From positions 124,001-188,000 of the forward strand of contig NZ_JAINWI010000003.1 in the NCBI RefSeq assembly GCF_021021435.1: a stretch of 64,000 nucleotides of DNA. The letters run 5' to 3'. The notes beneath the pieces are model-generated. The model was not told the origin of the DNA and did not search any database. It saw only the letters and a list, made by a program, of their open reading frames with translations. The position numbers were made by a program, and so were the translations under genes. Below, in pieces: positions 34,030 through 37,425 of the stretch. Within the stretch, counting starts at the first letter, position 1, and each line of letters starts with the position of its first letter. This stretch comes from Seohaeicola saemankumensis (GTDB taxonomy: Bacteria > Pseudomonadota > Alphaproteobacteria > Rhodobacterales > Rhodobacteraceae).

Positions 34030-35223
34030 TCAGCAGGACAGGGGCAGAACCGGAACAACCTCGCCCGCGTCGCGCGGGCCGTCATGGGCCGGACGCAGCA
34101 CAAGGGCATTGGCCTCGGACAACACCGTCAGAAGCGAGCTGTCCTGACGGTCAAAGGCCAGAACCTCGCGCCCCTGTGTGCCCTCGCTGACATGGCCGCG
34201 CATGTAATGCGCGCGCGGACCATTGGCCGCGACCGGTGCCTGCAGCGCGGCGTGCAGAAGCGGGGGCAGGACATCTGTCAGTCCCAACATGGACCGCAGC
34301 ATCGGCAACAGGAAGAGATGGCCGCAGACAATCGCCGATACCGGATTTCCGGGCAGGCCAAGATAGGGTGTGCCATCCCCGAAAGCCCCCGCGATCAGGG
34401 GTTTGCCGGGACGCATGGCAATCTTGTAGAAGCTTTGGCGCAGCCCGAAACGCGCGGCCACCTGCGCGACCAGATCATGGTCACCGACCGATGCGCCGCC
34501 GATGGTCACGATCAGATCGGCCCCCATCGCCAACTCGTAGACCGTTGTCAGCGAGGCTTCGGTATCCCGTGCAATCGGCAGGATACGGGCAAAGCCGCCG
34601 GCATCCTCGATCATGGCTTTCAGGGCAAAAAGGTTCGAGGCGATGATCTGGTCGGGGCGCGGGTCTTCGCCGGGCATGACCAACTCGTCCCCCGTGGCGA
34701 TGATCGCAATCTCGGGTTTCCGCGTTACCGCGACATGGCCCGCATTCATCGCGGCCAGAAGCGCCAGTTCCGACGGACCCAGAATGCGCGGCGCAGTAAG
34801 ATGGTAGTCCGCTGCAAAATCAGCACCTTGCGGGCGGATATTCGTGCCGTGATCCAGCGTGTCGTCCAAGGTGATCTGCGCCCCGATCCGGGTAACATCC
34901 TCTTGGATGACCACCCGGTCGGCCCCTGCGGGCACCGGCGCGCCGGTAAAGATGCGCAACGCCTCACCCGCGCCAAGCTGCCCCGCCCAAGCGTGGCCCG
35001 CAGCAGCCTCGCCAATCACCTGCAACACCGCGCCGGGCCTGCAATCATCCTGCCGAAGCGCATAGCCATCCATCGCCGAGGCCGCAAACGGCGGTTGCGC
35101 CCGTCCCGCTGTCACGCTTTGCGCCAGAACCCGCCCCGCCGCCTGCGCCAATGGCACACGCTGCGCCTGAAGCGGCGCCACCAGCGCCAAACACAGCGTC
35201 TGAGCCTCGTCTACGGTGATCAT
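34030..35223 (-). CDS. moeA: Molybdopterin molybdenumtransferase
   Basis: A 397-residue MoeA that inserts molybdate into adenylylated molybdopterin. Family landmarks are SAMDGYALR (about 49-57), the IFTGAPVPAGADRVV segment (about 90-104), TGDELV (about 181-186) and IGGASVGDHD (about 246-255). Its ATG overlaps the stop of the upstream GIY-YIG gene by four bases. In related genomes moeA follows moaC directly, and the junction sequence here suggests the same ancestral order. Confidence 0.95.
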   Translation of the reverse strand: MITVDEAQTLCLALVAPLQAQRVPLAQAAGRVLAQSVTAGRAQPPFAASAMDGYALRQDDCRPGAVLQVIGEAAAGHAWAGQLGAGEALRIFTGAPVPAGADRVVIQEDVTRIGAQITLDDTLDHGTNIRPQGADFAADYHLTAPRILGPSELALLAAMNAGHVAVTRKPEIAIIATGDELVMPGEDPRPDQIIASNLFALKAMIEDAGGFARILPIARDTEASLTTVYELAMGADLIVTIGGASVGDHDLVAQVAARFGLRQSFYKIAMRPGKPLIAGAFGDGTPYLGLPGNPVSAIVCGHLFLLPMLRSMLGLTDVLPPLLHAALQAPVAANGPRAHYMRGHVSEGTQGREVLAFDRQDSSLLTVLSEANALVLRPAHDGPRDAGEVVPVLPLSC

Positions 35224-35226
35224 TCC
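35220..35226. repeat. 7-bp direct repeat, downstream copy (moeA side)
   Basis: TCATTCC (GGAATGA on the coding strand) spans the stop of the GIY-YIG gene and the start of moeA. The same heptamer occurs at the other end of the gene. Confidence 0.6.
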
Positions 35227-36131
35227 ACACGACCTTGCGAGGCTTCAACAAGTGCTTCTTCCCATTCGGCGTAGGTTTGACCTGTTGATTTAAAAACCCA
35301 GCTAGTTCGACCATTTGCCGAGCGACCAGAAACGATCGCAGCAGCGGCTGAGGGACTTGAAAAGGCATAGTTACTAGCAAAAATACGGTGATCCTCGTTT
35401 AGAACCAAAATTCCACTAGTCACGAGCTCATCATATAGTTTGAAGTAGTGTGTGTTGGAATTTCGGTCTCCAACCCAGGAAGACCTTGCCTGAGAGCCTG
35501 CTTGGACAATCAGTTCACCCGCTTCCAATACGGCAATGGCTTTTAAGCCCTGTCGAGGCATGTTGAATTCGAACACATTTCTGTCGAGCGGTGCCTCTTG
35601 TTCTTGCTTTAGCAATGATGGGCTACGCGTTTTCTTGAGGAACATGTCCACGCGGATTGCTGGAAGAACCATCATCAGAGTCTCAAGAAACCCTTCCATG
35701 TTTGAGATTGCTGCTTCCGATAGACTGCTACGCGGCGGCGTATTTCCATTCTCCAAAGGAATTGTTGCGACTTCCTTGGCAATCTCCACCAATCGCGATT
35801 CCAGATACTTTACATGAGCCTTGTGAAGATTGTTCGATGCTGACGTTATGAGGATAGCGTATTCCCACCATCCCTTTTTAACTACGTGGTCCCTGATGCG
35901 TGATCTCATGTCCTCGGCTTCACCTATGTAGGCCAGAGGCTCACCTTCGTTTTCGCCAATAAGGACATATACACCTGTATAGGACGTTTCTGAGCGCGCT
36001 AACCCTTCCATGATCTGTGTGCGTGGTACTCTGAGAACATGACCCGTCCAGTTGAAAACCTCGGCGGTCAGCATTCCGTCGGGTCGACCATCAATAAAAA
36101 ACAGTTCGAGAGATCGACCTTGAACACTCAT
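35220..36131 (-). CDS. GIY-YIG nuclease with C-terminal DUF4357 domain, inserted in moa/moe operon
   Basis: A 303-residue protein. The GIY-YIG domain spans about 50-132: GVY at 53-55, YIG at 68-70, an Arg in MRSRIRDH (78-80), Glu111 in KYLES and Asn130 in ENGNTPP, so all catalytic positions seem intact. A DUF4357-like module ([20 protein letters not shown]) ends the protein at about 250-292. The DNA is AT-rich: I count 23 G+C in 35401-35460 against 42 in the 34201-34260 of moeA. It overlaps both neighbours by ATGA. Likely acquired; related proteins accompany restriction-type systems, but its own role is unknown. Confidence 0.85.
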
Positions 36132-36134
36132 TCC
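36128..36134. repeat. 7-bp direct repeat, upstream copy (moaC side)
   Basis: TCATTCC spans the moaC stop and the GIY-YIG start. The two copies are 908 bp apart and exactly bracket the AT-rich gene. Confidence 0.6.
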
Positions 36135-36610
36135 GCCTCAAACCTTCCGGACTTGCCACCGTCTTTCAGCGTGACATGGATGCCGCCGATCTCCATCGCC
36201 TTATCCACGGCTTTGGTCATGTCATAGACGGTCAGCGCCGCCGTGCTCACGGCTGTCAGGGCTTCCATCTCGACGCCGGTCTGGCCTGTGGTCTTGACCG
36301 TGGCCTTGATCCGCACGCCGGGCAGGGCTGCGTCCAGCGTCAGATCCACCGTGACCTTGGTGATGGCCAGCGGGTGGCAAAGCGGGATCAGATCGGCGGT
36401 TTTCTTGGCACCCATGATTCCCGCCAGCCGCGCGACACCCAGAACATCGCCCTTCTTGGCACGACCTTCTGCAATGATTTCATATGTTTCGCTGGCCATC
36501 CTGATCCAGCCTGTGGCAACAGCCACGCGTGCGGTCACGTCTTTCTGCGACACATCGACCATATGCGCCTGACCCTGCGCGTCGAAATGGGTCAGGGTCT
36601 TGCCCGCCAT
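36128..36610 (-). CDS. moaC: Cyclic pyranopterin monophosphate synthase
   Basis: A 160-residue MoaC forming cyclic pyranopterin monophosphate in molybdenum cofactor synthesis. Conserved segments are LIPLCHPL (about 73-80), [19 protein letters not shown] and the C-terminal LKDGGKSG. The ATG at 36610 overlaps the trpC stop by one base (TGATG); a GTG codon just before it is a less likely start. moaA is not in the window. Confidence 0.95.
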
Positions 36611-37425
36611 CACATACCCCCGGGGCTAAGCGGATTGGCCAGCAATTGGCGCGTGGCCTGTTCGACACCGTCCTGCCGCATCAGGCTTTCCCCGATCAGG
36701 AAACAGCGCGCGCCATACATCGCCATATCGGCCAGATCCTGCGGCGTGCTCAGCCCGCTTTCGCAAACCATCAAGCCGTCCACGGGCACCTGTTTGGACA
36801 GGGTGCGCGTGGTATCGAGCGAAGTTTCGAACGTATTGAGGTTGCGGTTGTTGATCCCGATCAGGCGCGAGGACAGCAGGGTTGCACGCTCCAACTCGGC
36901 TGCATCATGCACCTCGATCAGCGCATCCATGCCCCAGTCATGCGCCACGGCCTCCAACTCCTGCGCCTGAGCATCGCTGACCGAGGCCATGATGATCAGG
37001 ATGCAATCGGCCCCAAGCGCCCGCGCCTCGACCACCTGATAGGGATCATACATGAAATCCTTGCGAAGTGCGGGCAACGCGCAAGCGGCACGCGCGGCGG
37101 TCAGATAGTCCTTGGCCCCCTGAAAGCTGGGGGTATCCGTCAGAACGGACAGACAAGTCGCGCCCCCCGCGGCATAGGCCTGCGCCAATGCCGGCGGGTC
37201 GAAATCCGCACGGATCAACCCCTTGGAGGGACTCGCCTTCTTGATCTCGGCGATCAGGCCATATCCGGTGCGACTGGCGGCATGCAGCGCATCGGCAAAC
37301 CCGCGCACGGGCGAGGCGGCTTTGGCCTCGTCTTCCAGATCGGCCAATGGTTTGGCAGCCTTGTCGGAGGCCACTTCGTCCAGCTTGTAGGCCTTGATGC
37401 GGTCCAGAATCGTTTCGGTCATCAT
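36610..37425 (-). CDS. trpC: Indole-3-glycerol phosphate synthase
   Basis: A 271-residue monofunctional TrpC (no fused TrpF). The barrel shows [13 protein letters not shown] (about 58-70), [27 protein letters not shown] with the catalytic Lys, and INNRNLNTF. It closes the indole ring of carboxyphenylamino-deoxyribulose phosphate. The start overlaps the trpD stop as ATGA, and a second ATG immediately follows. Confidence 0.96.

Follow-up and report, generated by a model that had tools for sequence, protein, structure and literature searches.

A predicted GIY-YIG/DUF4357 nuclease gene between moaC and moeA in Rhodobacterales and the apparent exchange of its C-terminal half

The gene and its operon

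The stretch of DNA considered here (the window, 64,000 nucleotides of Seohaeicola saemankumensis) carries on its minus strand the gene order trpC, moaC, a gene for a protein of 303 amino acids (aa) and moeA. The genes and the joints between them are the following:

36610..37425, minus strand: trpC, the next gene upstream in the operon (IGPS match, 4.2e-94)
36128..36610, minus strand: moaC, the upstream neighbour (MoaC match, 7.4e-57; ATG start assumed)
36128..36131, minus strand: ATGA overlap of the moaC stop and the nuclease gene start
35220..36131, minus strand: GIY-YIG/DUF4357 gene (PADLOC PDC-S14 family, phrog_12629), 303 aa, inserted between moaC and moeA
35220..35223, minus strand: ATGA overlap of the nuclease gene stop and the moeA start
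34030..35223, minus strand: moeA, the downstream neighbour (MoeA_N match, 1.9e-37)

A sequence-only reading of this DNA had described a nuclease-like gene of foreign composition seated in a start/stop overlap, a description that is supported; empty direct junctions do exist in related genomes. The ATGA overlaps with both neighbours are as it gave them, the moaC stop ending at 36128 and moeA starting at 35223, and the low G+C content of the insert holds for the gene as a whole, which has 48.4% G+C compared with 61.1% for moaC, 65.6% for moeA and 60.6% for the window, and a third-position value (GC3) of 45.7% compared with 74.7% for moaC and 74.4% for moeA. When the window is set against empty congeners, the insert consists of one ORF, from ATGA to stop codon, in which neither a transposase or integrase nor any cargo beyond the single gene was found.

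Protein domains and predicted fold

The protein divides into two parts of different conservation, joined by a linker:

35640..36131, minus strand: conserved N-terminal half with the GIY-YIG domain, residues 1–164, up to a ten-residue motif (from alignment, model and fold matches)
35577..35639, minus strand: variable linker, residues 165–185, low pLDDT at residues 170–181, which holds the left breakpoint of the exchanges described below
35223..35576, minus strand: exchangeable C-terminal half, residues 186–303, DUF4357, with weak RAMA similarity

Among Pfam families, DUF4357 is matched at E=7.6e-17 and GIY-YIG below its cut-off (E=0.026, 15.2 bits versus 22.6). The match to phrog_12629 is nearly full length (E=1e-75) and that to the PADLOC model PDC-S14 is full length (E=8e-112), the latter being shared by all 45 aligned members. 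The catalytic positions of the GIY-YIG domain, which had been read as intact, are indeed so: 45 relatives share G53, Y55, Y68, G70, R78, E111 and N128 without exception, and H82 is present in 23. The model of the whole protein (pLDDT 90.5, pTM 0.60) finds its five best Foldseek matches among the viral models of BFVD with probabilities of 0.94–1.0 and E values of 0.0019–0.013, four of which bear the name GIY-YIG or homing/intron endonuclease. The corresponding search of the PDB returned no significant match, the only sensible one being 2lwf (probability 0.91, E=0.075), which we take to be the GIY-YIG domain of a plant glutaredoxin, and no solved structure was reached by sequence at E≤1 (alignment A3). 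Taken together, motif and predicted fold speak for a divergent member of the GIY-YIG nuclease superfamily.

The C-terminal half, modelled alone (m082d27f10020; pLDDT 93.5, pTM 0.83), finds nothing convincing among solved structures, its best match having an E value of 0.71 and a probability of 0.15. DUF4357 is matched in all of 27 such halves and RAMA weakly in 16 of the 27 at E≤0.1, the window's own half falling below the cut-off.

Occupied and empty junctions

With one genome sampled per species, the gene is present after moaC in 2/7 genomes of the genus and 14/394 of the family; the 14 carriers include the window, and moeA is seen in 13 of them, the contig of G353 ending inside the gene. 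In the five other congeners, moaC and moeA are directly joined by ATGA without an insert. A further 60 family genomes with GIY-free junctions, picked from the best moeA matches listed and not known to carry the gene there, show a −4 overlap in 48 cases (mostly ATGA, some GTGA or TTGA), a −1 overlap in 4, a spacing of 40–121 bp in 7 and a 1-kb insert in 1, so that the empty junction is directly coupled in 52/60. The comparison of this junction across relatives, which the sequence-only reading had proposed, has thus turned up empty direct junctions, and a gene that resides here in few relatives. The placement of the nuclease gene between moaC and moeA exceeds chance.

The one other insert, in the moaC–moeA interval L162 of genome G009, is likewise AT-rich and about 1 kb long, with an ORF of about 200 aa that matches no Pfam family. 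At one in 60 sampled GIY-free junctions, such inserts do not support the idea of a general insertion hotspot.

The GGAATGA heptamer and the mode of insertion

The sequence-only reading had also noted the heptamer GGAATGA on the coding strand at both junctions, 908 bp apart, which is correct:

36128..36134, minus strand: GGAATGA, upstream copy, the end of moaC; also at the empty junction of congeners G001, G003 and G005
35220..35226, minus strand: GGAATGA, downstream copy; matches the upstream copy in 1/48 other occupants

Its proposal that this repeat is a footprint of insertion finds no support in the other occupants of the site. Of 48 distinct ones, 31 overlap each neighbour by 4 bp, and only L054 has the same heptamer at its two ends; in congener G006, which has the gene at the same junction, the two ends share ATGATCA and not GGAATGA. 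In the collected DNA, GGAATGA forms the end of 21/252 ATGA couplings, which are not independent of each other, many being homologous. Because ATGA is forced by the coupling and GGAATGA recurs at other couplings, the repeat is not more than chance would give, and we take it to be coincidence combined with coupling constraint; as a target-site duplication at moaC–moeA it is rejected.

Insertion through microhomology or target duplication at GGAATGA is accordingly very improbable in our estimate, even though the exact heptamer stands at both ends in the window and some related groups offer weak hints. The 3′ ends of group IIa members resemble the end of the upstream gene more than in shuffled pairs (88 matches over 16 bases versus 79.6 on average, P=0.009, n=9), one of them, in G209, has an 18-bp repeat, and the hisD-located group gives P=0.04 (n=5); the moaC group itself, however, gives P=0.13 (n=13), no correction is applied to these P values, and none falls below 0.28 when just the last 6 bases are compared. 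A pattern of GAGG...ATGA is also expected from a Shine–Dalgarno sequence followed by a coupled start.

Group IIa (L067, L068 and L073–L080) is a recently scattered sub-clade that occupies many unrelated operons, and several of its members have ends like GAGGCNGCNGAATGA on both sides. This group may record the mechanism of insertion better than the window does.

Relatives in other operons

A relative at E≤1e-20 is present in 61/394 family genomes. Beside the 14 sites after moaC, those of the close group lie directly between hisD and a UPF0262 gene (5), between fdsB and fdsA (2) and after an hsdS-like gene (1, in G388); two more close-group copies near hisD have extra DNA before UPF0262, one of them also after hisD. 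A more distant member of group II, in G383, is again found between fdsB and fdsA. Other distant relatives occupy hsdM–hsdS and hsdS–hsdR junctions, an ABC-transporter pair, an ABC_tran–ABC-3 pair that we read as znuC–znuB, a PKS–glycosyltransferase pair and positions after type III res genes. Neighbours could not be named by the reference set at 28 of the 60 family loci.

Three side observations belong here. The hisD site of G027 (L006, L008 and L009) holds a copy broken by an in-frame TAG and by frame changes, an instance of loss by decay. In G024 (L055:4776-4985), a 70-aa DUF4287 gene that starts at the fdsB stop stands between fdsB and the nuclease gene. In the distant group III relatives L091, L092 and L097, the start lies where a type III restriction res gene ends.

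The genome collection yielded 552 relatives, of which the 80 most similar were analysed by locus. Among these best 80 of 552, 42 are located between moaC and moeA, 2 after moaC with moeA not seen, 9 between hsdS and hsdR, 7 beside one hsd neighbour and 20 elsewhere. By our reading, ATGA stands at both ends in 5 of the 9 hsdS–hsdR loci, so the gene family does occur at other ATGA overlaps, where the sequence-only reading had suggested looking for the gene. One of the 20 loci elsewhere, L229 of Gemmobacter aquatilis, is flanked by what we read as murA and a DUF2948-like gene, a short way upstream of hisD. The hisD–UPF0262 junction is looser than moaC–moeA: relatives have a −4 overlap in 7/23 readable cases and otherwise a spacing of 1 to 188 bp, with one of 818 bp, and hisD is missing upstream at 3/26 loci. 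The gene is lower in G+C than its flanks in 52/54 moaC–moeA loci, a few genomes being counted twice, versus 2/10 hsdS–hsdR loci.

At E≤1e-5, relatives occur in 2/50,697 phage records and 52/72,556 plasmid records, as well as at 37 viral-contig loci. Of the 52 plasmid records, the contexts of three were looked at, following the NCBI annotation: on a Roseomonas mucosa plasmid the gene stands between hsdS and hsdR and overlaps each by 4 bp; on Rhodococcus pDF01 it again follows hsdS, itself preceded by a methylase gene, and is followed by hsdR, the 4-bp overlap being confined to its start; and the copy on an Acuticoccus plasmid has no hsd neighbour.

One lineage at the moaC–moeA junction and its exchange between genomes

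In a quick tree of 100 rows, which has many weak forks, the 51 moaC-located sequences form one clade (SH-aLRT 98) whose sister (support 83) comprises seven hisD-located rows and L229, the hsd-located and other rows lying outside. Location at moaC versus elsewhere changes once on this tree, which suggests a single step into the moaC–moeA junction. The fresh insertion into the window genome that had been proposed thus gives way to an old lineage faithful to its site; many independent insertions into the junction, a separate candidate, are unsupported by this one clade.

A single clade at the site is also what speaks for an old insertion inherited vertically, lost many times and kept for some service to the molybdenum cofactor or trp operon, and this alternative can further draw on the 9/36 gene splits in common with the flank tree and on purifying selection, the uncultured pair L173/L177 having dN 0.018 versus dS 0.24, as expected of a working protein. 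The distribution of the gene fits it poorly: a flank tree of 79 genomes, 14 of them carriers and 65 non-carriers, calls for 11 or more changes between presence and absence, and places the carrier G006 and the empty G002 as sisters, a pair that by itself does not tell gain from loss. In 39 carriers, moreover, 17 gene splits reach a support of ≥95, and 7 of them conflict with flank splits of the same strength; the flank topology is rejected by the gene data (AU p=5.6e-14), and distances correlate at 0.47 between gene and flanks versus 0.79 between near and far flanks. Part of this conflict is noise or recombination within the operon, because the near and far flanks are themselves in conflict, each rejecting the tree of the other, with 4/23 strong near splits contradicted.

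Individual pairs depart from their flanks in both directions. In L173/L177, the identity of the gene, taken in steps of 100 bp, is 91–97%; it is still ~91% over the final ~110 bp of moaC, and mostly 61–84% in the flanks beyond. Fourfold-site differences are larger in the gene than in the flanks between the window and G006 (0.75 versus 0.44, a value for which the lower G+C content of the gene may raise the saturation level) and between L188 and L234 (0.39 versus 0.08). Equal values in gene and flanks, as expected under vertical descent, are found in L044/L172 and L045/L167. With the same family resident in unrelated operons as well, we regard vertical insertion with many losses as quite improbable. 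Because the history of the gene disagrees with that of its flanks, these trees and divergences establish, at the level of sequence comparison, that genomes have exchanged the moaC–moeA lineage with one another at this junction.

Exchange of the C-terminal half

The two halves of the protein differ in history. Across the 51 moaC rows, identity averages 0.69 for residues 1–160 and 0.45 for residues 186–303, with a correlation of 0.25. Fourteen pairs have N-half identities of at least 0.9, and in 10 of them, which come from three groups (5, 3 and 2 pairs), the C-half is below 0.6; the two halves of moeA are 0.74–1.00 identical in those 14 pairs. When 1176 pairs are compared, the largest half-to-half difference is 0.15 in moeA versus 0.54 in the nuclease, and both halves have the same nearest neighbour in 31 of 100 rows. 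Of the 16 hsd-located rows, 3/7 pairs with N-halves at ≥0.9 have C-halves below 0.6, so that swapping is not confined to housekeeping sites; the two halves agree better there, with a correlation of 0.68.

The edges of the exchange can be located in close pairs. In the metagenome-assembled genomes (MAGs) that carry L188, L232 and L234, the flanks are 80–100% identical per 50 bp, mostly ≥92%. Between L188 and L232, the first 500 bp of the gene are 90–100% identical, identity then falls to 30–60% up to the stop codon, and moeA after the stop returns to 86–98%. The same left edge, after the ten-residue motif, recurs in L172/L178, L167/L208 and L188/L202 at moaC–moeA and in L217/L231 at hsdS–hsdR, and the right edge is the stop codon or at most ~60 bp before it. 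The contrast is smaller in L188/L202, whose surroundings are only 62–86% identical, and absent between the halves of L164/L168, because the flanks of that pair have diverged too. L172, L178, L217 and L231 carry strain names, the pair L172/L178 belonging to the isolates Thalassobius sp. I31.1 and Paenihalocynthiibacter styelae, and L188, L202, L232, L234, L167 and L208 are MAGs. Judged by these identity profiles, the C-terminal half has been replaced as a block in the moaC–moeA lineage.

In the Sphingomonas pair L217/L231, where the order is hsdS, the gene and hsdR, the end of hsdS is mostly 24–46% identical, the nuclease N-half is conserved, the C-half stands at 40–78% and hsdR at 74–98%. A linked change of specificity in hsdS and the C-half of the nuclease is possible from these profiles.

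Homing or defence

Free-standing homing, in which the protein would cut the empty moaC–moeA junction and repair templated by a carrier would copy the gene in, as for the seg and mob genes of phage T4, could account for site fidelity combined with patchy presence, and the recent L173/L177 transfer, a short one-sided tract that takes in the end of moaC with moeA diverged from near the stop codon, resembles its outcome. The similarity of the modelled fold to phage GIY-YIG homing endonucleases points the same way, as does the arrangement in T4, where, in the part of PMC2988022 available to us, 5 of 12 ORFs for free-standing endonucleases are described as overlapping the ORF before them, and the start of mobE as lying in the nrdA stop. 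The replacement of the C-half nevertheless weakens this explanation, because the half presumed to read the target is exchanged for unrelated versions while the site stays the same. Relatives, moreover, reside in restriction operons and at many different junctions, and site fidelity is explained just as well by ordinary recombination through the flanks. A single intergenic gene and an empty site in relatives are both found here, as for homing endonucleases, but the conserved recognition half that would go with them is not, if the C-half is the putative reader. Of the resemblance to homing or microhomology-mediated insertion that the sequence-only reading had drawn, the heptamer has fallen away and homing itself has become unlikely.

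We favour, with somewhat better than even confidence, an operon-embedded nuclease of restriction or defence type. Such a role fits because a conserved, putatively cutting half joined to an exchangeable other half is common in restriction operons, and the PDC-S14 label agrees with it, being itself a prediction of a candidate system. Many relatives belong to type I restriction-modification operons, between hsdS and hsdR and often ATGA-coupled at both ends, and one lineage has settled at moaC–moeA in Rhodobacterales and its sister at hisD–UPF0262. The gene, having presumably no promoter of its own, would be translated by re-initiation after moaC, and would spread by homologous recombination through moaC and moeA; recombination through these conserved neighbours would explain both the spread at one site and the changing half. 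The GIY-YIG domain may cut incoming DNA that is recognized by the DUF4357 half, whose part as a DNA reader we infer from the weak RAMA similarity and the pattern of swaps. A modification-dependent (type IV) restriction enzyme would have no cognate methylase and would carry a reader domain for modified bases. No methylase adjoins the window gene, the one N6_Mtase match of its genome lying on another contig; since a partner methylase is not adjacent, the target is probably a modified base or a site absent from the host. Pressure from phages or plasmids would favour the swapping of C-halves.

A wider model, which we put forward tentatively and hold at less than even odds, takes the single ORF bounded by ATGA at both ends as the travelling unit, able to move seamlessly between restriction and housekeeping operons. 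Coupled junctions would serve as standing sites in Rhodobacterales, specificity would be renewed by a C-half cassette between the fixed motif and the stop-codon region, and housekeeping operons would act as hidden, promoterless defence loci. If this is true, anti-phage or restriction genes hide singly in biosynthetic operons, where searches by island, integrase or promoter miss them, and their target can be changed by swapping half a gene while the operon stays functional. The pairs with very similar nuclease halves, different C-halves and similar flanks form a natural panel for learning what DUF4357 recognizes. The evidence as a whole suggests that ordinary operons can host a travelling, probably anti-phage gene that appears to trade one half between strains.

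Comparison with known systems

In the literature covered, from which subscription journals and preprints were mostly absent, we found no description of GIY-YIG/DUF4357 genes in housekeeping operons or of swapped halves, and no experiment on the family. The parts of three papers available to us give the background: PDC systems are still to be characterized, PDC-S14 overlaps GAO_29 and is present in phage-susceptible strains of a P. aeruginosa panel (57% of 14), which counts against a defence role [PMC10855318]; DUF4357 has been noted together with GIY-YIG and in GmrSD homologues [PMC4619093]; and the roles of the GIY-YIG motif, along with the T4 free-standing endonucleases, are described in [PMC2988022].

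The window gene matches PDC-S14, a single-gene phage defence candidate of PADLOC, over its full length, and differs in its residence in a housekeeping operon and in the swapping of its C-half, neither of which is mentioned for PDC-S14 in the part of PMC10855318 that we could consult. With type I restriction-modification operons that carry a GIY-YIG gene between hsdS and hsdR, it has in common the gene family and, often, the ATGA coupling, but it adjoins moaC and moeA and no hsd gene. The T4 seg genes are similar in being single-gene insertions between conserved genes, with upstream overlaps and a GIY-YIG domain, as far as the consulted part of PMC2988022 describes them; unlike them, the present gene lies on a bacterial chromosome and has a DUF4357 half that is exchanged at a constant site, and its cleavage activity is a prediction. 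Finally, the defence hotspots of the E. coli core genome, to judge from the portion of PMC10121019 seen, likewise place defence-type genes at fixed core-gene positions that are mostly unoccupied, but those are islands of mobile elements with many cargos, whereas the moaC–moeA junction holds one gene in a coupled operon without an integrase, and another insert in only one of the 60 sampled GIY-free junctions.
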